A stretch of DNA of 10,916 nucleotides from Spirochaetaceae bacterium (lineage in GTDB: Bacteria > Spirochaetota > Spirochaetia > DSM-27196 > PWMO01), in contig PWMO01000075.1 in the NCBI GenBank assembly GCA_003558175.1, forward strand, positions 1 through 10,916, written 5' to 3'. Each line of letters starts with the position of its first letter. Position 1 is the stretch's first letter. Shown here piece by piece: positions 2 to 10,916 of this stretch. Made by a program: the position numbers and the translations under genes. The notes beneath the pieces are model-generated. The model ran no database searches and had not been told where the DNA came from. It worked only from the letters and a program-made list of their open reading frames with translations.

Positions 2-208
2 TATCGGGGCCCGGCCAACTTGCAGGGTGCCACCGATATGGGCTGCCATCCATCATTCCTCCCGGGATATCAGCCGGTTGAGGATCCGGATGTGCTCGAT
101 CAGTTCGCAGCGAACTGGAGCCTGCGCTGGAATGAATCGCAGATCGCTCAGAACGGATTCCGGGTAATCAAGGAACTGCCGACCGTTCCGGGTTATTCGA
201 TCACCGAG
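2..208 (+). CDS. Molybdopterin oxidoreductase fragment (formate dehydrogenase alpha-like), fused in frame to fliD
   Basis: The frame that becomes fliD is open back to the window edge (it begins YRGPANL), and its first ~60 residues do not look like FliD. They carry the pattern RG-x-x-N-x-QGA-x-DMG-x-x-P-x-x-x-PGYQ-x-V, then D-P, F-x-x-x-W, and LP-x-x-PG-x-x-x-TEM. In the molybdopterin oxidoreductase (MopB) family this run is typical of formate dehydrogenase alpha subunits, lying well inside the catalytic subunit before the segment ending GENP. Neither end of that enzyme is present, so this is a fragment. It passes without a stop into the FliD region around 200-225. Family assignment is from memory of the motif. 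Whether the fusion is biological or an assembly or amplification artefact cannot be decided here. Confidence 0.72.
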
Positions 209-2176
209 ATGATCGACGACCTGATGAAGGTCGAGCGCATCCCGGTCACGCGGATGGAAGACCGCGTCGATCGGCTGCAGGATCAGCGGGTCATATGGAA
301 TGACATCAGCCGCGCAACCGGTGAACTGCGAGACAGTGCGCGCGCCCTGTACGGCTTCCAGAGCCCCTTTAACTCCCGAATCGCCAGATCCTCAAATGAG
401 TCCGTGCTTACCGCTGAAGCAACGAGACAGTCGCAGGAGATGGTCAGCAGGATCGAAGTGCGCCAACTGGCAGGGCGCGACCATTTCCTCTCGCGCAGTC
501 TCGCGCTCGATGCCGAAGTACCGGAAGGGCGCTACGGCTTTCGGGTTGGTGATGAAGAGCTCTCTTTTACGTTTCGCGGCGGCAGCCTGCGCGAATTCTC
601 CGAAGCCGTGAACCGCAACGCCGGTGAACTGGTGCGTACCCGCGTTGTTCAGAACACGCGTGACACATCGGTCATAACCTTCGAATCGCAACGAACCGGC
701 GCCGAGCAACGGCTGACCTTCCTGGACGACGCCATCGACTTCGCGCTTGAAAGCGGGGTCATCGAGCCCGGACGCGACGCGCAACGCAACGTCTCAATTG
801 CCGATCGCACCCTTGCGCGCTGGACCCAACCGATTGACCGTGAAGCAGTACGGGTCAGCGATGAAACTCTCATGGTCCGCCCGGGCGGAGAGGTTTCGCT
901 GCCGGTGCGTCCCTCTTTTCCGGTGGACGGCAACATCATGCTCGAGTTTGAGGTGCGGGTGACCGACCGCAGCGCCGCGGCGCTCGAGACACCCCCGCCC
1001 CCGCCCGGACCTCAGGTGCCTGCCGGACCGGGGGTTTCGCTGGATGACATCACCATCGAGGGGGCACCGTCACGGGCCGTCCTGCCCGACGTCGAAGACC
1101 CGGAACCGCCGCAGATTGTGGACGACATGCGGTTTCTGTTCGCGCGCGAGGGAACGACCTCCGTTCCCCTCCCCGAGCTGCGTGACAACGGCGAGTTCAG
1201 CACCGTGCGCCTTCCGCTCTCCGAATTTGTAGACCAGATGGATGCCCTCGACATTCGCAATCGCAACACGCATCGTGATCTGGAGATCCGTAACGTGCGC
1301 GTCTTCGACCCCGATGCACGCGACGAGTTCGAGCCGCTGAACGCGGTGGAGCTGGCCTCCGACAGCGTTATAGCGGTTGACGGCGTAGAGATCGTGCGCG
1401 ACAGCAACACGATCGACGACGTAATCCCTGGAACAACGCTTAATCTGCACCAGGTAAGTCCGCAGCCGGTTTCGCTCAACGTGGAGCCCGACCGGGATTC
1501 GATCAAAGACGGAATCATTAACTTTGTCGGCCACTACAACCAGCTGGTGCGGGATATCAACATCCTCACGCGCGCCAACCCGGCGCTGGTGGACGAGATC
1601 GGCTATTTCAGCGACGAGGAACGCGAACAGGCTCTGGCACGACTCGGCGCACTGCAGGGAGATACCACCCTGAATCAGCTGCGCAGCCGCCTGCAGACGC
1701 TCGTAATGAACCCGTACGAGACCAGGGCCGGAGCAGAATTGAGCCTGATGGCCCAGATCGGTATCTCGACCAACGTATCCGGATTCACTGGCGGCATGGA
1801 CGCCTCCCGCATGCGCGGCTATCTCGAGATAGATGAGGCCAGGCTCGACTCCTCGATCAGGAACAACCTCCAGGCGGTGCGTGACCTGTTCGGCTTCGAC
1901 AGCGACGGCGATTTTGCGGTGGATTCTGGCGTCGCCTACCAGGTTGAACGTAACCTCGGGCCCTACGTGCAGTCCGGCGGCGTATTCGCAATGCGTCGCC
2001 AGGGAATCGACGGCCGCGTCGAGCGCACCGAAGCCGATATCGAGACCTACAATCGAAGACTCGACCGCTATGAGCAGCGCCTGCGCGTTGAGTTCGGCAG
2101 AATGGAAGGGGCGATGCAGATGCTGGAAGACAATCAGCAGGCGCTCGACAACCTGAGTCCGCAGCAGCAACGCTGA
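20..2176 (+). CDS. fliD: Flagellar filament cap protein FliD (HAP2), N-terminus replaced
   Basis: FliD caps the growing flagellar filament and folds incoming flagellin subunits; in spirochaetes this happens in the periplasm. Counting from TTG 20, FliD similarity begins near residue 64 with MIDDLMKVERIP and a heptad-like segment, continues through RDSARALYGFQSPFN, and ends with a typical FliD C-terminal domain (about residues 500-710: GISTNVSGF, YLEIDEARLD, ALRNNL-like and LFGFDSDGD motifs, then a coiled coil). A proline-rich linker lies near residues 324-340, followed by the long insert that makes spirochaete FliD larger than the enteric protein. The usual short N-terminal stretch with an IPG motif is absent; the preceding residues look like formate dehydrogenase. 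TTG 20 has no convincing ribosome binding site and the frame runs off the window, so the true start is unknown. The first internal ATG at 209 also lacks one. The FliD assignment itself is firm. Confidence 0.93.
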   Translation: MQGATDMGCHPSFLPGYQPVEDPDVLDQFAANWSLRWNESQIAQNGFRVIKELPTVPGYSITEMIDDLMKVERIPVTRMEDRVDRLQDQRVIWNDISRATGELRDSARALYGFQSPFNSRIARSSNESVLTAEATRQSQEMVSRIEVRQLAGRDHFLSRSLALDAEVPEGRYGFRVGDEELSFTFRGGSLREFSEAVNRNAGELVRTRVVQNTRDTSVITFESQRTGAEQRLTFLDDAIDFALESGVIEPGRDAQRNVSIADRTLARWTQPIDREAVRVSDETLMVRPGGEVSLPVRPSFPVDGNIMLEFEVRVTDRSAAALETPPPPPGPQVPAGPGVSLDDITIEGAPSRAVLPDVEDPEPPQIVDDMRFLFAREGTTSVPLPELRDNGEFSTVRLPLSEFVDQMDALDIRNRNTHRDLEIRNVRVFDPDARDEFEPLNAVELASDSVIAVDGVEIVRDSNTIDDVIPGTTLNLHQVSPQPVSLNVEPDRDSIKDGIINFVGHYNQLVRDINILTRANPALVDEIGYFSDEEREQALARLGALQGDTTLNQLRSRLQTLVMNPYETRAGAELSLMAQIGISTNVSGFTGGMDASRMRGYLEIDEARLDSSIRNNLQAVRDLFGFDSDGDFAVDSGVAYQVERNLGPYVQSGGVFAMRRQGIDGRVERTEADIETYNRRLDRYEQRLRVEFGRMEGAMQMLEDNQQALDNLSPQQQR

Positions 2177-2363
2177 ACTGCCGCACGTGTCTCGGGGCTG
2201 CTGAATCGCGGCGCTTGATCCGCCGCAGCCGGTGTCTCGTGGCACGTGACTCCGGGCAGCAGCGGGCAGCGCGGCGGCGGCACGAAGTCGCAATGGCATA
2301 GCAGCGCAACGCGCATAACGGATCACATCGAATGCTGAACAGAGTCAGCGGCGAACTTCTCGT

Positions 2364-2401
2364 TTGTCAGACCGGAATATCGGCCGATATAGTAATATAA
2401 T
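2364..2401 (+). promoter_or_regulatory. Sigma-70-type promoter candidate upstream of the 303-aa gene
   Basis: TTGTCA (2364-2369) and TATAGT (2388-2393) are separated by 18 bp, a good housekeeping-type pair. A perfect TATAAT follows at 2396-2401 but has no good -35 at normal spacing. Using TATAGT, transcription would start near 2400, leaving a leader of under 20 nt that still contains the GGGGG ribosome binding site. The AT-rich patch stands out from the GC-rich surroundings. It suggests the genes after fliD can be transcribed separately from fliD. Confidence 0.5.
2377..2390. promoter_or_regulatory. 14-bp perfect palindrome nested in the promoter (possible operator)
   Basis: ATATCGGCCGATAT is a perfect inverted repeat with no spacer. 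It lies between the candidate -35 and -10 elements and overlaps the first bases of TATAGT. A dimeric repressor bound here would block polymerase. No regulator gene in the window is an obvious partner, so an operator role is inferred from position and symmetry only. Confidence 0.4.
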
Positions 2402-2416
2402 AGCGGGGGTAACTCT

Positions 2417-3328
2417 TTGCAGGTATTCATGGATGGGCAGCAGATTGAGGTCACGCTCGAGGACGAGCGCACCGTGGCGCAGGTCGTCGCTGCGATCAAC
2501 TCGTGGGTAGTGGACAACGGTATGGCGATTGCGGCGTTGCGGGTGGATGATCGCGAGCTGCCGTTGGAACAGATTGGTGGCCATGACTCACGCCCGGTGG
2601 ACGAGATTGGCGAGATCCACGTAGAGACGCGACCGCAATGGGAACTCATCCTGTCGCATTTGGAGCTGGTAAGCGGCTTTCTCCAGCAATGGCACGCGAT
2701 GCTCACCAGCCCCACGCCGGATGTCGAATCGAACCTGCGCCTGCTGCTGGAAGAGCACCGAGATCTTGCGCGCCACCTGCAGGAGCATGTCGAGCTTATC
2801 TTCCCCGGTTCAGGCGAGGCTCCACTATCAACCGTTTACACGGTCACCGGTGATCCGCAACAGATGCTGACTCCGCCGGACGGCACCGAACCGCTCGTCC
2901 GTGAGCTCGCTGCGCTGCTGACCCTGTTGCGCCAGCGAATCGACGAGATTCGGCAGCCGTCAAGAGAAGCTGCCGTCAGCTCTGGCCTGATTCATGGCAT
3001 GCTCGATGAGGTTCGCGACGTTTCTATCCTGCTGCAGACCGGCAAAGACAAAGAAGCGATGGCGTGCGTAGTGCGGTTCACCGAAGTGGTGGAGAAGCTG
3101 CTGCGCATTCTGCCGCATCTGGCGCGCACTGACCAGGCATTCCGACAGCGGGTAGAGGATAGCGCTGCCCACGGTGCCCTGACCGAAGAACTGAACGAGC
3201 CACTGCGTGAGCTGCTCGAAGCGTTCCATGCGCAGGATTCCGTATCGATCGGGGATCTGCTGGAATACGAGATTGTCCCCAGAATAGAGAAGCTGCTTGC
3301 GCTGATCCCCGCCGAGACGGATGGGTAG
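2417..3328 (+). CDS. Conserved-looking protein of unknown function downstream of fliD
   Basis: I do not recognise this 303-aa protein by name. TTG 2417 is preceded by GGGGG at 2405-2409 with suitable spacing and gives MQVFMDGQQIEVTLEDERTV; ATG 2429, four codons later, is the alternative. Residues 1 to about 72 alternate short strands and one helix (VFMDGQQIEVTLEDE, then a helix, ALRVDDREL, IGEIHVETRPQ), resembling a ubiquitin-like or beta-grasp fold. The rest is predicted mostly helical, acidic and leucine-rich, with no signal peptide or membrane segment, so it is probably cytoplasmic. It occupies the place after fliD where many bacteria carry fliS or fliT, and precedes a PilZ gene. A chaperone or assembly role is guesswork from position. 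From memory, Treponema has a hypothetical protein in the same position. Confidence 0.85.
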   Translation: MQVFMDGQQIEVTLEDERTVAQVVAAINSWVVDNGMAIAALRVDDRELPLEQIGGHDSRPVDEIGEIHVETRPQWELILSHLELVSGFLQQWHAMLTSPTPDVESNLRLLLEEHRDLARHLQEHVELIFPGSGEAPLSTVYTVTGDPQQMLTPPDGTEPLVRELAALLTLLRQRIDEIRQPSREAAVSSGLIHGMLDEVRDVSILLQTGKDKEAMACVVRFTEVVEKLLRILPHLARTDQAFRQRVEDSAAHGALTEELNEPLRELLEAFHAQDSVSIGDLLEYEIVPRIEKLLALIPAETDG

Positions 3329-3380
3329 CGCGATGAGCAACAACCAGGGTAGCGCGGTGGGAGAATAGCGGAGCATTGCA

Positions 3381-4466
3381 ATGACTATCCTGCAGACCCC
3401 CACATTCTTCACCACACCGGATCCCACTACCAACAGAATTGCGCTCGCCGTCTTTGCAATAATGGTCGCGGCAATTGTGCTCGCCTACGTGGCAGGCGGG
3501 AATCGTGCCGGGGGAGGACGATCCAGGGGGCTCAAACGCACCGCGCGCAGAATGGGGCTCAATCGGGCGCAGGTGAGCATGCTCACCGAGATGGTTCGCA
3601 CCCTTCGAGTCCGGCAACCGATGCGCCTGCTGCAGGAGCCCGACTTTCTCACCGCCGCCGTCCGACGCATGGTACGACGCATCGACGGATCGTCAGGTGA
3701 TCTCGCCGAGCGGGAAAACCGTAAAGCAGTGGTGTTCCAAATCAAGCAACAGGTCTCGCAGGCGCAGTCTGGGGCACGCAGCCTGACCTCCACGCGTCAA
3801 CTGCAGACCGGTCGGCAGGTTCGAATCAGCACCGATGGGAATACGTGGCTCGATTCAACGGTTACTTCGAATACCAAGAGTACGTTCGGCATCAAGGTTC
3901 CGCACGACAGTCACGGTCGCGACGTGCTGTTGGACCGTGGCACAACGGTTTATGTCTCGTTCGCGCTCAGCAGCGACGGTCGCCTTTACCGCCTGAAAAC
4001 CAAAATCGCCGGAATGACGCGCTCGCGCGGCGGTTCTACGCTCCTGTTGTCACACACCGATAGACTGGAGCAGTCCCAGACCCGCCGCTTTCCGCGCCGC
4101 GAGTTTGACCGCCCGGCCCTCTTCTGGCCGATTGAGGTAGTCACCGTTGGAACCGGGCGCAAGGCCAAGAAGCAGGCAATCGTCAACAAGTACCGCCGCA
4201 ATCTCGGCCAGGTGGAAGAGATCTCTGCCGGCGGCTGCAGTATTCGCTCCTCAACCCCGCTGCCCACCGGGTCGTTGTTGAAAATCGAGTTCGAGACCGA
4301 AGACCGCGACCGGCTGGCAGTTTTTGGTAAAGTTCGCAGCGTTGACCGTGCTCCGGGCCGATTCGGAATCATGCATGTGATGTTTACGCGCGTCACCCGG
4401 ACCAACCTGAACCGCATACAGTCGTTCGTCTACGGAGTAGACTCCGATCCCGACTACCGCCGGTAA
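3381..4466 (+). CDS. Membrane-anchored PilZ-domain protein (probable c-di-GMP effector)
   Basis: The ATG at 3381 is preceded by GGAG at 3370-3373 with 7-nt spacing. Residues 20-39 (IALAVFAIMVAAIVLAY) form one hydrophobic membrane anchor, followed by a basic stretch that favours a cytoplasmic remainder. Residues ~40-125 look helical. Residues ~130-232 are strand-rich and resemble the YcgR-like N-terminal partner domain. The PilZ domain follows: RRFPRRE at 235-241 supplies the RxxxR c-di-GMP motif, and EISAGG at 280-285 matches the second motif [D/N]xSxxG except that glutamate replaces the first residue. Such proteins brake or tune flagellar rotation or act in c-di-GMP signalling, which fits the flagellar neighbourhood. 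The PilZ identity is solid; the YcgR-like partner domain is an inference. The 52-bp spacing from the preceding gene suggests co-transcription. Confidence 0.85.
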   Translation: MTILQTPTFFTTPDPTTNRIALAVFAIMVAAIVLAYVAGGNRAGGGRSRGLKRTARRMGLNRAQVSMLTEMVRTLRVRQPMRLLQEPDFLTAAVRRMVRRIDGSSGDLAERENRKAVVFQIKQQVSQAQSGARSLTSTRQLQTGRQVRISTDGNTWLDSTVTSNTKSTFGIKVPHDSHGRDVLLDRGTTVYVSFALSSDGRLYRLKTKIAGMTRSRGGSTLLLSHTDRLEQSQTRRFPRREFDRPALFWPIEVVTVGTGRKAKKQAIVNKYRRNLGQVEEISAGGCSIRSSTPLPTGSLLKIEFETEDRDRLAVFGKVRSVDRAPGRFGIMHVMFTRVTRTNLNRIQSFVYGVDSDPDYRR

Positions 4467-4482
4467 AGAGATATCGACGGTC

Positions 4483-4815
4483 ATGAGAGAAGCCGACGGC
4501 AAGAATGCCGCAACCGACACCGAATATCTATGGGACACCGAGGCAGGCGAAATGAAGGTACTCGAACTTACCGATGTGAACCGTCGCGAGTCAATGATTT
4601 TCTATCGGAGGCAGTATGAGGCCACAGCGGTCTTTCGCCACGCGGGGGCAGACCGGCAGGCGATTCCGGTGACGTTCACCATTGAGCAGACAGCCACGGG
4701 AACCTCCAGGGTCACGGTAGACATTGACGACTCACTTGACTATCCTCTGGTACCGGCGGTGCAAGCGCTGCGCGACTACATCATCAGCATGGACCGGCAA
4801 GGGCTTCTCCCCTGA
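4483..4815 (+). CDS. Small protein of unknown function between PilZ gene and tsaE
   Basis: This 110-aa protein is not one I recognise. It lies 16 bp after the PilZ gene, in the same direction, so it is probably in the same transcript. From ATG 4483 the first 23 residues are polar and low in hydrophobics. ATG 4552 (MKVLELTDVNRRESMIF), preceded by GAGG at 4540-4543, may be the real start and would give 87 residues. The body suggests a compact alpha/beta fold: strands in YEATAVFRHAG, IPVTFTIEQ and RVTVDID, then a helix near the C-terminus (VPAVQALRDYIISM). No signal peptide, membrane segment or catalytic motif is visible. Coding is supported by GC-rich third positions and by its place in the gene row; function is unknown. 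Confidence 0.75.
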   Translation: MREADGKNAATDTEYLWDTEAGEMKVLELTDVNRRESMIFYRRQYEATAVFRHAGADRQAIPVTFTIEQTATGTSRVTVDIDDSLDYPLVPAVQALRDYIISMDRQGLLP

Positions 4816-5000
4816 GACGTCGGAAACAGCCGGAATCACGGTGCACGCTGCAGACTGACTCGCACACCGTTCGACGCGCCGCGCACCGCTCCCCCCGTGC
4901 ACAACGGTTCTTGCGGGGTGACCTGCGCTGCCGGACAAATCGAGCCGTGGCGTGCGGTTCATGCAGACCGCGCGGATACCAGTAAGCGTAATCGACCGAA
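4816..5000. other. GC-rich intergenic stretch before tsaE
   Basis: No gene is visible in these 185 bp. CCCCG (4893-4897) can pair with CGGGG (4914-4918) across a 16-nt loop, and the 6-bp palindrome GTGCAC occurs at 4841-4846 and 4897-4902, but no T-run makes this a convincing terminator. No good -35/-10 pair was found ahead of tsaE. Confidence 0.4.
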
Positions 5001-5444
5001 ATGAGAAAGACCAGCGTAACAACGATCTCTACCGAAGATACCTTTGATCAGGCGCGTCGCCTGGCCGCGCAACTGAAACCCGGTGATGTGGTTGCGCTCT
5101 GCGGCGGCGTTGGTGCCGGCAAGACTGTCTTCGTTAAGGGGCTTGCCGCGGCTCTTGGAATAATGGACCCGATCGCCAGCGCCACCTTCACCATCGTTGA
5201 GGAGTACCCCGGAACGCTGCCACTCATCCACGCCGATCTCTACCGACTGAACAGCGTAGTCGAGGCGGTAGACGTCGGTCTCGAAGAACTCATGAGCACA
5301 ACGGCCGGGATTGTTGTTGTAGAATGGGCCGACAAGGCGCCCGAACTCTTTCCCACCGGGACCGTCTGGGTCTCTATTGCCATTCAGTCCGACGGAAGCC
5401 GCCGCATAACACAATTCCGTACTTGCAACGGAGAGACGCAGTGA
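5001..5444 (+). CDS. tsaE: tRNA t6A37 biosynthesis ATPase TsaE
   Basis: TsaE is the small P-loop ATPase that works with TsaB and TsaD to place threonylcarbamoyl on A37 of tRNAs reading ANN codons. At 147 aa it has normal family length. The Walker A motif GGVGAGKT is at residues 35-42. SATF at 60-63 corresponds to the usual SPTF loop, with alanine for proline. HADLYRL at 77-83 is the conserved HxDxYR motif, and VVVEWAD around 105-111 is the family's E-W strand. An in-frame TAA at 4989 makes ATG 5001 the first usable start, yet the bases before it lack a clear Shine-Dalgarno sequence. Its TGA stop lies within the tsaB start, implying translational coupling. It acts in the cytoplasm and is expected to be essential or nearly so. 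Confidence 0.95.
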   Translation: MRKTSVTTISTEDTFDQARRLAAQLKPGDVVALCGGVGAGKTVFVKGLAAALGIMDPIASATFTIVEEYPGTLPLIHADLYRLNSVVEAVDVGLEELMSTTAGIVVVEWADKAPELFPTGTVWVSIAIQSDGSRRITQFRTCNGETQ

Positions 5445-6232
5445 CCTCGAATACCGCAGTCAGCGCCGTCGCGATCGACACCGCAACCGAGTTGCTCTCA
5501 ATCGCTCTGGTCGGCGGCAAAACCGGAACGCAGCGACGCTTCGTCCATCAGGCGGATGCCGGGCTGCAGCACGGAAGCAACCTTTTGCCGGCCGTGCAGT
5601 GGCTACTTGGTCGAGCCGGCATCACCGCGGCCGAACTCGAGTTGATTGTCTGCTGCGATGGGCCGGGATCGTTCACGGGTCTGCGCATCGGGATGGCTAC
5701 GGCAAAGGGACTCGCCGTTGCCGCGCGAGCACCACTGGTAGTGGTCCCGACGCTCGACGCGCTGGCATGGCCGCACCGTGAGTGGCCGGGAATGATAGTT
5801 GCGGCAATCGACGCACGCAAACAGCGTCTCTACTGTGCACTGTACCGCAAAGAACGAAAGCTGAGCGATGACCTCGATCTATGCCCGAAGCGACTCAATG
5901 ATCTGATCGAGACGACCGCGATGCCGGATGAACCGATTCTCGTTACCGGGCCGGCAGCACCGCAGCTCTGCGACTTTTTCTCCAGCGGTACCGGAGACAA
6001 TTCCGGCGAGTCCTCTGCCGACCGGGCTACCCGCCAACGGGTCGGAGCTCGCGTCCGTTGCGATCCTGCAGCGCGATCGGGCGCCGCCGTTGGCCTGCTG
6101 GAACTGGGGCTGGCTCGCGCGCGCCGCGGGGAGTACGCAGCGGAGAACCACGGCCCGCACTACGTTCGCATCAGCGATGCCGAGATCGGCATCACCGCTC
6201 CTCGGCAGACAGGTCCTCGGCAGACAGGATGA
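5441..6232 (+). CDS. tsaB: tRNA t6A37 biosynthesis protein TsaB
   Basis: TsaB is the catalytically inactive ASKHA-fold paralogue that forms the platform for TsaD in the t6A37 complex. The start is GTG 5441, overlapping the tsaE stop (GTGA) and preceded by GGAGAG at 5430-5435; the frame is open further upstream but that part lies inside tsaE. Family marks are AIDTATELLSIAL at residues 11-23, the histidine in LQHGSNLLP, and GPGSFTGLRIG at 74-84. At 263 aa it is longer than usual. Two oddities account for this: a polar, atypical segment at about residues 184-212, where another frame has more typical codon use, and a C-terminal PRQTG-PRQTG tail made by a 15-bp tandem duplication. The C-terminal HGPHYVRISDAEI matches the family end, so the protein is probably functional. 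Confidence 0.92.
   Translation: MTSNTAVSAVAIDTATELLSIALVGGKTGTQRRFVHQADAGLQHGSNLLPAVQWLLGRAGITAAELELIVCCDGPGSFTGLRIGMATAKGLAVAARAPLVVVPTLDALAWPHREWPGMIVAAIDARKQRLYCALYRKERKLSDDLDLCPKRLNDLIETTAMPDEPILVTGPAAPQLCDFFSSGTGDNSGESSADRATRQRVGARVRCDPAARSGAAVGLLELGLARARRGEYAAENHGPHYVRISDAEIGITAPRQTGPRQTG
6199..6228 (+). repeat. Perfect 15-bp tandem duplication at the 3' end of tsaB
   Basis: TCCTCGGCAGACAGG occurs twice head to tail (6199-6213 and 6214-6228). It is five codons long and in frame, so it adds PRQTG to the TsaB tail without disturbing the stop. Confidence 0.95.
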
Positions 6233-6343
6233 TCCGGCGGCGCGCACAAGATCCAACACGAAGTCAGCGCTGATGCTGCCGCATGGGAACGCACCCGGCA
6301 GTCAGGTGGCCGCGTGTCCGGCACACTGCCCTTGGAAGAAGCG
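6233..6343. other. Convergent intergenic region between tsaB and csrA
   Basis: These 111 bp separate two converging gene groups. CTGCCG (6276-6281) can pair with CGGCAG (6296-6301) over a 14-nt loop, extended by one G-T pair. No run of T follows on either strand, so it is a weak candidate for a bidirectional terminator. Nothing else is visible. Confidence 0.35.
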
Positions 6344-6601
6344 TCAGTCTTTGGAGTTTGCGGTTTCGTCCGCAGCTTGTTTGTCGAAGAGCGCGTCCAG
6401 CTCCGCCGGGATCTCGCTGGCGGCGGCTGCCTGTCGGTTCTCTTCCAGGATCGCCTCGTAGACTTCCCGTCGGTACACCTTCACGTGGCGCGGTGCGCTG
6501 ATTCCAAGCTTGACCTGGTCACCGCGAATATCAATGACCGAGACTTCGATCTCACCGCCGATCACGATGCTCTCGTTGGTCTTGCGCGCCAGAATCAGCA
6601 T
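6344..6601 (-). CDS. csrA: Carbon storage / translational regulator CsrA
   Basis: CsrA is a small dimeric RNA-binding protein that represses translation by binding GGA motifs near ribosome binding sites. In flagellated bacteria with FliW it controls flagellin synthesis. The 85-aa product begins [16 protein letters not shown] and contains the RNA-contacting residues L4, R6, V42 and R44 (VKVYRREVY). Asn55, which in Bacillus matters for FliW binding (from memory), is also present. The C-terminal extension from about residue 60 is longer than in enteric CsrA and fits the FliW-regulated type. The ATG overlaps the fliW stop by 7 bp, and AAGGA at 6609-6613 (minus strand) serves as ribosome binding site. 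It is the last gene of the flgN-csrA group. Confidence 0.97.
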
Positions 6602-7035
6602 TCGCCCTTCCTTGACAATTCAGCCGCTATCGAATGCTTGGTCTGCCAGCGCTGATCAAGCGAGATTGACTGCTTTCCCGTACGCTGCCTGCGGTTGATC
6701 ACCAGCGGGCCCTGCAGGTTCGCAGTCACCTCGCCTTCCGCCGGGATCGTCACGATCGCGAAGACCAGGATATCCTCTTCACCCGGGCCGCCGAGTTCGT
6801 CGACGTCTTCCTGGGGGATATCAAGCACATAGTCGGGCCGAAACAGGTAGGGATTGATCAGTATGAACGCAACTTCACGGTCGCGGGTGCTCTGCAGCCA
6901 GTAAAACGGTGGTTTGTGCGCATCGAGCAGCGCAAACTCGGAGTGCTGCTCGAATCCGTAGAGTCCGGCGGGAAACTGGATCAGCTGTTTCTCGGACAGC
7001 TCAACCGGGCCGTACGCTTTCGTGTCAATTGTCAT
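6595..7035 (-). CDS. fliW: Flagellar assembly factor FliW
   Basis: FliW binds flagellin or CsrA in a partner switch: when flagellin has been exported, free FliW sequesters CsrA and releases flagellin translation. The 146-aa product has normal length and the family signature: [20 protein letters not shown] at residues 19-38, F-x-WLQS at about 44-49, [11 protein letters not shown], then a strand-rich C-terminal half ([18 protein letters not shown]). The ATG lies 2 bp after the flgL stop, and its GAGG ribosome binding site sits immediately before that TAA, so translation is probably coupled. The 3' end overlaps csrA by 7 bp, placing the two partners in tight stoichiometric linkage. Confidence 0.97.
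6606..6614 (-). promoter_or_regulatory. Possible CsrA-binding site over the csrA ribosome binding site
   Basis: On the minus strand the sequence CAAGGAAGG lies 5-13 nt before the csrA ATG and includes its Shine-Dalgarno AAGGA. It matches the core of the known CsrA consensus (ACARGGAUG) at most positions, with the essential GGA present. Autoregulation of csrA by such a site is known in E. coli; here it is an inference from one short match. Confidence 0.35.
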
Positions 7036-7037
7036 CG

Positions 7038-8285
7038 TTACCTCAAGAAGTCCAGCAGTGTCGGCTGAATAACCCTTGCCGCGGTCGCCAGCGCAGCGCG
7101 GTGCGTGTATTCGAGCATTCGCAGGTTGGTTATCGCTTCGGCCATATCGATATCGGTTTCGTTTGAGTTCAGTTTGCCGATCTGGGGTATTTCGAACTCG
7201 GTACGCAGATACGCGTGCTCGAGCCTTGAGTCTTTTGCCCCGAGGCGACCTAGGTTGGACAGCAGATTGTCCAGCGCACTGTCGATGCCCTGTACCGCTC
7301 CACCGCCAACGTCAAAACTGTCTCCGGCATAGAGCGAATCACGCAACGCAATGATCGAGTCAAACAGTGACCCACCAAATACCGTTGCCGTGGGGGCGAT
7401 GTTCCCCGGCGGTGCTACATCGGCATTGACCACAATGCCGAGGTCCTGCAGCACGCTGCTCCCCTCCCCGTCCTGAGCCCAGATCTGGTGCGGCGACGTT
7501 GTCTCCAGCACCAGCGAGTTCTGCACCGGATCGAGACGGGCGCGCACGGCAGCACCGGAATCGTTGATTTTGCTGACGACGGTATGCACGTTGTCGCCCG
7601 CGGTCACTTCGATTGCAACGCCGTCGATGTACATGATTCCGTCCTGCGGCACGGTATAGCCGTCGCTATCGACGGTGGAAAACAGCTGCTGGTTCTCCGC
7701 CCAGAACACCTGGTTGCCGGGAAAATTAAGCTCGATGTAGGAGTTCTCTGCAATCTCGGTGCGCCGTTCGCCGATGTCTCCGACATAATCGACCGAGGTG
7801 ATCACCGCACCGGGAGCTCCCTCGACGTTTCCCTCGATGACTCGAAACGGCAGAGTCTTGCTTTTCTTGCCGGAGAACAGCATCGTCCCGTCGGCGTTGC
7901 GCCCGTTGGCGATCTCAACAAACTCGCGCAGCAACTCGTCTACCTCGTTCGCCATATGACGCATATCATCGCGCGTGAAGGTTCCGGTGGCTCCCTGGAT
8001 CGCGATCTCACGAATACGCTGCAGCATGTCTACGCCCTGTTTCATATACCCTTCCGCTACCCGGTAGTTGTCCTGAGCGTACCGGATGTTTTCCGAAAAG
8101 CGGTTTAACCGCGCGAGGTACGACTGATACCGTGTCGAATGCGCTGCCGCCAGCGGCGCGTCACGCAGGTTCTGGATACGAGACTGCGACGCCATCTGGT
8201 TCTGCACCTGATTCATCATGTGCTCGCGGCGCCGCGTATGATACTGCATGTTGTCATTCGGCAGATTGGTACTGATCCGAAACAT
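7038..8285 (-). CDS. flgL: Flagellar hook-filament junction protein FlgL (HAP3)
   Basis: FlgL joins the FlgK ring to the flagellin filament. The 415-aa protein has the flagellin-like helical ends: an N-terminal region (MFRISTNLPNDNMQYH, then R-x-Q-x-LRDAPLAAAHSTRYQSYL) and a C-terminal region (SNETDIDMAEAITNLRMLEYTHRAALATAARVIQPTLLDFL). The pattern DGTMLFSGKKSKTLPF near residues 132-147 is common in FlgL. The middle domain contains a flagellin-hook IN motif at about 222-245 (NVHTVVSKINDSGAAV). The ATG lies 3 bp after the flgK stop, and AGGAG (8294-8298, minus strand) precedes it with good spacing, overlapping the end of flgK. It is exported by the flagellar type III system, presumably with the FlgN chaperone encoded upstream. 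Confidence 0.96.
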   Translation of the reverse strand: MFRISTNLPNDNMQYHTRRREHMMNQVQNQMASQSRIQNLRDAPLAAAHSTRYQSYLARLNRFSENIRYAQDNYRVAEGYMKQGVDMLQRIREIAIQGATGTFTRDDMRHMANEVDELLREFVEIANGRNADGTMLFSGKKSKTLPFRVIEGNVEGAPGAVITSVDYVGDIGERRTEIAENSYIELNFPGNQVFWAENQQLFSTVDSDGYTVPQDGIMYIDGVAIEVTAGDNVHTVVSKINDSGAAVRARLDPVQNSLVLETTSPHQIWAQDGEGSSVLQDLGIVVNADVAPPGNIAPTATVFGGSLFDSIIALRDSLYAGDSFDVGGGAVQGIDSALDNLLSNLGRLGAKDSRLEHAYLRTEFEIPQIGKLNSNETDIDMAEAITNLRMLEYTHRAALATAARVIQPTLLDFLR

Positions 8286-8288
8286 GGC

Positions 8289-10163
8289 TTACACTCCTAA
8301 CCGGTTGATAATGGTATCCAGCATCCGATCGACATAACTGATGAACCGCGCGGCGGCGTTGTAGCCGTGCTGGAACTTGATCATCTGTGCCAGTTCTTCG
8401 TCGATATTCACCCCGCTGATCGATTCACGTCGATCACGGAGATCCTTCATGATGGACTCCTGGGTTCGCAGCGCGAGCTCCGCCTCCTCCCCCTTCAGTC
8501 CGATCTCGGCCACGGTGTCGGCGAAGTAGTCGTCGAAGGTGGCGATCTGCCCTACCATGACCGGTCGGTTCCGCAGGCCTGCGATCTCAAGTGCCGCATC
8601 GCCGTCCCCAACCACGCCGGGCCCACCGGCTGTACCAAACGCCGCGGCAATGCGCGCCGGTTCGTTGACCAGTGCCGGGTTCATGCTGATCCAGGCCGAA
8701 GGGTTCTGCAGCGGCGCCACCGCGAAGCGCGCGTCGTCGCGCAGCAGGTCCACCGCGTCGGATTGCTGCCAGTTGTAAGCTCCGTCGGCACCCGAAGCAG
8801 CGAGAATACCCGCGTAGCCTACCAGAAACTGCCCTGAGTCCTCGACGTGGCGCAGGACAAAGTCCGGATTCTCGATCTCGCCGGCAGGCGTTCCCTTCAG
8901 CATCATGAAGCCGTTACGGTCGAGTCTGGCCACCACTTCAGCGCCGGAGTTGTTGATTCGCGCGATCAGATCGTTTACGGTATCGGTTGGGAAATAGTCT
9001 ACGTCCATCGTGCCGGTGCGTCCCGCCAGTGTGAGCATGCCGGCCAGCCCGAGCTGTTCCTCTCCCTGCAGTCGGTTGGCACCGCTGAGACGAAACAGGT
9101 AGGTGGAGTCGAAAGCCCCATCACCGGAGCGGTCGTAGTTGCCGAGCGCATTCAGCACTGCCGGATATTCAACGAAGAAATCCAGTCCGGTTTCGGCGGT
9201 CAGTCCGTAGCCGTCGCGGTGGACCTCGTTTACCAGGTCGATGAAGTTGATCGTCATATTATCGAGCTTCTGCACTTCGCGCCGCACGTCACCGTCACGC
9301 AGCTCAAGCACCGAGGCCAGCGATCCGCCGCGGAAATGCGCCACCTCGCCGGAGTGCTCCCAGACCACATTGGAATAGCCGTCGTTCTCAGGAACCGGGA
9401 CCGCGTCGAACGGACGAGCGATGCGTCCCTGCACGATGTGAAACCCGCTGGTATAGATGCTGAACTCATCAGGGTTGCGGTCATCGATTGTGATGTTGAT
9501 GAGAGACGAAAGTCGATTTACCAGCAGGTCGCGGCGATCGTAGAGATCGTTCGACTGGTCTCCGGCGGCTTCACTCTTCACGATCTCGTTGTTCAGTGCG
9601 CTGATCTCGCGGATGATCTCGTTGACCTGCGCCACACCGGCTCGCACCTCGTCGTTCAGCATGGTACGAATGCGGTCCAGGCTGTGATAGCGCAGCTGGA
9701 TCCCTTCCATCAGCGCTTCGCCGCGCTCGACTATCGCCCGACGAGCCGCCATCTGATCCGGAAAGACAGACAGTTCCTGCCAGCCGTCCCAGAAGCGATC
9801 CATCAGGTGTCGGACGGAGTGCTCGGTCGGTTCGTTGTATACCTGCTCCAGCATCATCACGTACTTATCGCGCATCTGCCAGTAGCCTTCCTCGTGTGTC
9901 TGCGCGATGATGCGCCCTTCGAGCAGCCGGTCGCGAATCCGCTCGATTCGTGCCACTTCCACACCCTGGCCGATCTGCCCCGGACGTTCGGCACGGTTTA
10001 ACTGCGGCCGATCGATGGCGTGAAACGCGCGCAATTCCACTCGCTGACGGCTATAACCCTCGGTGGAGGCATTACTCAGGTTGTGCCCAGCGGTATTGAG
10101 TGCAATCTGGTGCGCGAAAAGGCTCCGCTTGCCGATTTCGATACCGGAAAAGGTAGACTGCAT
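8289..10163 (-). CDS. flgK: Flagellar hook-associated protein FlgK (HAP1)
   Basis: FlgK forms the first ring on the hook, below FlgL. The 624-aa protein starts with the classic rod/hook-family N-terminus (STFSGIEIGKRSLFAHQ, then NTAGHNLSNASTEGYSRQRVEL, residues 3-43). It ends with the family C-terminus (SGVNIDEELAQMIKFQHGYNAAARFISYVDRMLDTIINRLG, residues ~582-623). The region ~85-200 is helical (DRFWDGWQELSVFPDQMAARR, EVRAGVAQVNEIIREI) as in other FlgK proteins, and a flagellin-hook IN motif occurs near 390-413 (TVNDLIARINNSGAEVVARLD). The ATG is preceded by GGGGGC with a 4-nt spacer. It is separated from flgN by 109 bp and from flgL by only 3 bp. Confidence 0.97.
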   Translation of the reverse strand: MQSTFSGIEIGKRSLFAHQIALNTAGHNLSNASTEGYSRQRVELRAFHAIDRPQLNRAERPGQIGQGVEVARIERIRDRLLEGRIIAQTHEEGYWQMRDKYVMMLEQVYNEPTEHSVRHLMDRFWDGWQELSVFPDQMAARRAIVERGEALMEGIQLRYHSLDRIRTMLNDEVRAGVAQVNEIIREISALNNEIVKSEAAGDQSNDLYDRRDLLVNRLSSLINITIDDRNPDEFSIYTSGFHIVQGRIARPFDAVPVPENDGYSNVVWEHSGEVAHFRGGSLASVLELRDGDVRREVQKLDNMTINFIDLVNEVHRDGYGLTAETGLDFFVEYPAVLNALGNYDRSGDGAFDSTYLFRLSGANRLQGEEQLGLAGMLTLAGRTGTMDVDYFPTDTVNDLIARINNSGAEVVARLDRNGFMMLKGTPAGEIENPDFVLRHVEDSGQFLVGYAGILAASGADGAYNWQQSDAVDLLRDDARFAVAPLQNPSAWISMNPALVNEPARIAAAFGTAGGPGVVGDGDAALEIAGLRNRPVMVGQIATFDDYFADTVAEIGLKGEEAELALRTQESIMKDLRDRRESISGVNIDEELAQMIKFQHGYNAAARFISYVDRMLDTIINRLGV

Positions 10164-10272
10164 AAAAGCCCCCTATTGCCTCAAGCCTGTTGCCTCAAGC
10201 CTGTTATCACTAACGTATTGCCCCGATTCTGTGACCTCAGGCCTGCTGCTGCGCTTGGCCAATGCCATACGC
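10164..10272. other. flgN-flgK spacer
   Basis: These 109 bp lie between the flgN stop and the flgK start. They hold a perfect tandem duplication next to the flgK ribosome binding site and a partial third copy further upstream. I see no convincing promoter or terminator, so read-through from flgN into flgK is likely. Confidence 0.45.
10176..10203. repeat. Perfect 14-bp tandem duplication in the flgN-flgK spacer
   Basis: TTGCCTCAAGCCTG is present twice head to tail (10176-10189 and 10190-10203). A partial relative, CCTCAGGCCTG, occurs at 10235-10245. On the transcribed minus strand the repeats end about 12 nt before the flgK ATG. Confidence 0.93.
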
Positions 10273-10776
10273 CTAAAGATGACGGTCGACCACGACCGCA
10301 TGTGTCCGCCCGTTACCCGCGTTCCCGTCCCGACCGTAGATGGTACCGCGATGATCCGGCGAACTCTCCTCGAGAAACGATCGCATGGTGGTGGTTCCGG
10401 CGGTCACGTAGGCGTCAATACCGCCGGTGAGACTGCGAATCCGCATCACCGAGACTTTGAGACTGCGATAAAGGGTGCGCAATCGTGTGGCCGACTTTTC
10501 GTCAAGCCGCCCAATCAACTCCGCGAACCCCGCACGTGGTCCGGTCCCGTGAGATCGGCACAGTGCCGAAAACGCGTCGTTGCGCAGCTGTTCAGAGCGC
10601 TCGATGTCCTCCGACAGCCGGTTCATCTCTTCAATTACCACCTGCAACTGATGCCAATCACGGTTCAGCAACTGGTTCTGGAGCTCGCGTTCACGGTCTG
10701 CCAGCAGGTCCAGTAACTGAATCTCCTGCAACATCACCGAGCATAGCGAGTCAATGATCTGCTCTGCGCTTATCAT
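10273..10776 (-). CDS. flgN: FlgN-family flagellar export chaperone
   Basis: FlgN chaperones FlgK and FlgL to the flagellar export gate. The 167-aa protein is almost wholly helical over residues 5-130, with heptad-like leucines (LQEIQLLDLLADRERELQNQLLNRDW, then LQVVIEEMNRLSEDIERSE), as expected for this loosely conserved family. A flexible tail (SSPDHRGTIYGRDGNAGNG) ends in a short hydrophobic strand, VVVDRHL, also seen in spirochaete homologues as I recall them. The ATG follows GAGGA (10783-10787, minus strand) with good spacing. Position directly upstream of flgK supports the call, since sequence motifs alone are weak. It appears to be the first gene of the minus-strand group visible here. 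Confidence 0.85.
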   Translation of the reverse strand: MISAEQIIDSLCSVMLQEIQLLDLLADRERELQNQLLNRDWHQLQVVIEEMNRLSEDIERSEQLRNDAFSALCRSHGTGPRAGFAELIGRLDEKSATRLRTLYRSLKVSVMRIRSLTGGIDAYVTAGTTTMRSFLEESSPDHRGTIYGRDGNAGNGRTHAVVVDRHL

Positions 10777-10916
10777 GGTATGTCCTCATGTCTATCATCG
10801 GCGCAATCCCGCCCGTCATTAATATCTAAACAGTGGTGCCGATTTTGTTGTTGCCACCCAACGACACCGGCCCTCACCCCTGCCCTGCAAGGCCTCACTC
10901 GCTCTCTTCGCTCAAG
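10777..10916. other. Region upstream of flgN to the window edge
   Basis: No supported gene. An AT-rich patch at 10819-10830 (minus strand contains TTTAGATATTAAT) could hold a -10 element, but no matching -35 is seen. ATCGGC at 10797-10802 and GCCGAT at 10838-10843 form a distant inverted repeat of doubtful meaning. One minus-strand frame is open from the edge to a TGA overlapping the flgN ATG, but its codon use is poor. Confidence 0.3.

Follow-up and report, generated by a model that had tools for sequence, protein, structure and literature searches.

The first 201 to 218 bases of the window (the whole stretch of DNA analysed, 10,916 nt, which is the entire contig C165) appear to derive not from the spirochaete but from a different bacterium, one that carries the label Thermomicrobiaceae. 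The junction of formate dehydrogenase (FDH) and FliD sequences at that position is, almost certainly, a chimeric contig end and not a biological fusion. Two kinds of observation carry this conclusion. The sequence changes abruptly, with each side matching a different organism (the FDH locus L053 on one side, same-genus spirochaete contigs on the other), and unjoined versions of both parts exist, namely the FDH ORF of L053 and a fliD start found both on contig C76 of the same bin and in the homologous protein P0005.

The open frame in question occupies nt 2-2176 of the + strand (724 aa) and, as read from the ORF, begins at the window start. With the whole frame as query, residues 1-76 matched the NCBIfam model TIGR01591 (formate dehydrogenase alpha; E 1.6e-9); residues 1-77 alone matched it with an E value of 1.2e-11, at profile positions 321-380 of 672. 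The score of the frame, 43.4 bits against a curated cut-off of 666.25, is that of a fragment and not of a full-length member. Among PDB sequences, E. coli FDH-H was matched by residues 2-60 (E 3.3e-7), while Pfam yielded no FDH domain in residues 1-77, the sole match being weak (E 0.29) and to an unrelated family. The remainder of the frame is FliD, flagellar hook-associated protein 2: residues 64-723 matched NF005188 with an E value of 7.6e-176 and 586.3 bits, above the curated cut-off of 469, and qualify as full length, covering profile positions 12-659 of 661 with the first 11 positions absent. The Pfam domains FliD_N and FliD_C are both present. A preliminary description of this DNA had proposed an FDH-like stretch at the N-terminal end of the fliD frame, and had raised the possibility that residues 1-63 might prove to lack any MopB likeness; the NCBIfam and PDB matches bear out the former and contradict the latter, the FDH similarity being real.

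The source of the FDH piece was sought in species genomes. Ten loci were returned, the best of which, L053 (SLMJ01000266.1, 'Thermomicrobiaceae bacterium isolate CSSed165cm_354'), comes from a MAG and showed 100% identity across the 69 residues used as query. Four loci followed at 78-90% identity, with the labels Thermomicrobiaceae (3) and Sphaerobacteraceae (1); the remaining five were 49-55% identical over part of the query and carry either the label Alphaproteobacteria or those of genera and orders in that class. At the DNA level, L053 is 100% identical to window nt 1-218 and unrelated from nt 219 onward. Its FDH gene is an intact ORF of 801 aa, from which a protein in the collection searched (P0068) differs by one residue. 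The window piece corresponds to the middle of that ORF, from residue 560 on, so that nt 1-218 are an identical internal piece holding only about 72 of the 801 residues. The five genomes behind L053-L057 match the 724-aa frame within residues 1-77 only, and thus none of them has a FliD match. In the NCBI taxonomy, Thermomicrobiaceae are placed in Thermomicrobiota and Spirochaetaceae in Spirochaetota, which are different phyla. No DNA matches to window nt 1-300 were found elsewhere in the window's own bin. That bin does hold an FDH-like stretch (contig C323, nt 421-543, - strand), situated inside an 817-aa open frame; it was ruled out as the donor, since it is only 41% identical to the FDH piece, over residues 2-42.

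It was of interest to determine where one sequence gives way to the other. In blastn searches, the FDH side ends at nt 218 and the fliD side begins at nt 202 or 205. The interval nt 202-218 (+ strand) is a 17-nt word common to both genes, the longest shared, on either strand, by L053 and window nt 202-10916, and the breakpoint lies somewhere inside it. The contig start is thereby divided into a foreign FDH fragment (nt 1-201, + strand), the shared stretch, and spirochaete fliD, from which the native start and roughly the first 17 residues are absent (nt 219-2176, + strand). The handover had been placed at nt 176-226 in the preliminary description; the location is upheld, but the blastn ends and the shared word narrow it to nt 202-218. 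Microhomology at the join, also proposed there, is confirmed by the same word. For a 2.4-kb FDH ORF compared with 10.7 kb, and with equal base frequencies, only about 0.0015 such words are expected by chance, which makes it probable that shared sequence guided the join. The frame remains open across it because T-E-M-I-D is encoded there, in one and the same frame, by both genes. For the fliD codons at nt 202-218 the joined contig is the sole source, with P0005 in agreement at the protein level; C76 ends short of nt 202, and the word that the two genes truly share may therefore have fewer than 17 nt.

To locate the native start of fliD, the spirochaete's own genome was searched with the region upstream of fliD from a relative (G003). 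Bases 2-809 of this query aligned to C76:1-803, and bases 810-992 aligned to C165 from nt 202. The last 50 nt of contig C76 (3,101 nt) are fliD sequence that opens with a TTG start and encodes LSGISIPGISGGGRFN plus two bases; in the alignment to G003, the final base of C76 directly precedes the one aligned with window nt 202. C76 thus carries both the native first residues and the start codon that the window frame lacks relative to NF005188, and is the true upstream neighbour of fliD. Ahead of the fliD start, its sequence looks like a flagellin gene end followed by a FlaG-like gene. The start of the query matched this contig a second time, at C76:1683-1946, which suggests that two flagellin genes lie in tandem.

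An unjoined FliD was also recovered from the protein collection searched. P0005 (496 aa, from a single 5,227-nt contig) has the N-terminus MSGISIPGISGGGRFNT, followed by 479 residues identical to the window FliD, and looks, from this identity, like a product of the same population as the window spirochaete. A native FliD therefore exists for what is apparently the same population. The 17 residues of P0005 ahead of the equivalent position substantiate the earlier claim that the native N-terminus is absent from the window frame.

The spirochaete side of the junction was compared further with members of the same genus. Of the five same-genus genomes, four contain fliD, with 74-82% protein identity and matches beginning at window residue 65; the fifth gave a partial match only (residues 434-721). 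These four genes (L004-L007) have ordinary N-termini at the aligned junction, as do the FliD homologues P0002 and P0003, which are labelled 'Spirochaetaceae bacterium'; it is from the names of such homologues that the window's host is called a spirochaete here. The junction alignment was made without L009 and L010, in neither of which the word search found a match. By blastn, two same-genus contigs matched the window in order from nt 202 (L073) or 205 (L074) to 10803, with unmatched gaps between the matched stretches. The window beyond nt 218 looks, on this evidence, like the coherent sequence of one lineage.

Other instances of the fusion were looked for more widely. Scoring of the 8000 candidates sharing the most words, for proteins 0.55-1.75 times the query length, returned 80 homologues, 12 of which match residues 1-67 and 68 the rest of the frame; none matches both. 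Likewise, a single match covering both parts was found in none of 60 relatives besides the window's own genome, although 53 of them match the frame; in G020 the match begins at residue 47, but a TAG stop lies inside it. When residues 1-77 served as query, matches were obtained in 13 of 61 genomes (own included), and those outside the window's own contig were 32-49% identical and located in open frames of 554-1135 aa. In 53 of the 66 FliD homologues aligned from near the junction, 16-18 residues stand before it; in the remaining 13 the number is 13 (4), 32 (1), 36 (4), 42 (3) or zero (1), and an FDH part precedes the junction in none of the 66. The fusion was thus seen in none of the relatives or other assemblies examined, nor did any relative show the same FliD extension, an outcome that the preliminary description had held open.

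It had likewise left the choice between a genuine fusion and a chimera undecided. The identity of the donor DNA, C76 and P0005 lend strong support to a chimera and none to a fusion. It is very improbable that a real rearrangement, or a transfer between phyla, took place in some spirochaete cells and put a foreign FDH piece before fliD, producing a fusion or a truncated fliD. The frame is indeed open across the join, and the 17-nt shared sequence could also be used by illegitimate recombination. Identity of 100% in DNA with a gene of another phylum would, however, mean that the event took place very recently and in the same sediment; moreover, the FDH piece sits at the very end of a contig, the native fliD start is present in the same bin and in P0005, and the fusion is absent from every homologue and relative examined. 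A more particular version, in which a minority spirochaete strain with a very recent cross-phylum FDH insertion truncating fliD exists beside a majority with native fliD, is extremely improbable. The idea that FliD of this lineage naturally bears an N-terminal extension of 60-67 residues, one that only resembles FDH, has a negligible probability, since no support for it was found and it is already contradicted by the ordinary starts of the same-genus fliD genes, the 16-18 residues found ahead of the junction in most of the 66 FliD homologues aligned there, none of which has an FDH part, and the DNA identity of the piece with an FDH gene.

In the case of a chimeric contig end, then, the FDH piece would have been joined to spirochaete fliD at the 17-nt stretch present in both genes, either in vitro, by template switching or ligation while the library was prepared, or in silico, during assembly. 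In the real cell FliD would be ordinary and start as P0005 does; neither fliD nor the FDH gene looks unusual by itself. As the window is a whole contig, the FDH piece lies at an extreme contig end in a fragmented bin (2,770,935 bases in 550 contigs; 76.58% complete, 2.82% contaminated).

The bin name of L053 matches the CSSed165cm bins of the Cock Soda Lake study (PMC6704655), and the DNA identity suggests that the window's bin comes from that study as well. In that case, the contig would rest on Illumina reads (2 x 150 bp) that MEGAHIT assembled with a k-min of 21, as that study reports; an earlier soda-lake study (PMC6146748) likewise gives MEGAHIT with k-min 21. A plain k-mer merge by the assembler does not account for the join, 17 nt being shorter than this k-min. 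A graph error is therefore no more likely than a chimeric library molecule or read, if the assembly was run as described; a 17-nt join would be explained by a chimeric molecule or by a strain variant that went unseen. As described in the review PMC7299287, inter-genome chimeric contigs of short-read metagenomes resemble the present case in involving more than one genome, a short shared word, a contig end and a fragmented bin. The cases described there differ in arising from k-mers shared by related species or through sequencing errors, whereas here the organisms belong to different phyla and the shared word is of 17 nt.

For purposes of quality control, the first 201-218 bases of C165 should not be counted in this genome, nor should the predicted FDH-FliD protein be entered as a fusion. 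The case also shows how a chimera at a contig end can mimic a protein fusion, the reading frame running through the join without a stop.

The rest of the window was also surveyed. Between fliD and csrA, on the + strand (3381-6229), are a PilZ-domain gene, a TsaE gene and a gene matching the TsaD family, the last of which is, by our reading, TsaB. Two further + strand open frames (2417-3325 and 4483-4812) gave no Pfam match at E 0.001; blastn to the two same-genus contigs covers part of the former and none of the latter. At 6344-10776, on the - strand and hence opposite to fliD, Pfam identifies CsrA, FliW, flagellin-type, FlgK and FlgN genes, the flagellin-type gene being read as FlgL. The order of these genes is kept in two same-genus contigs, and they make up an ordinary flagellar cluster.
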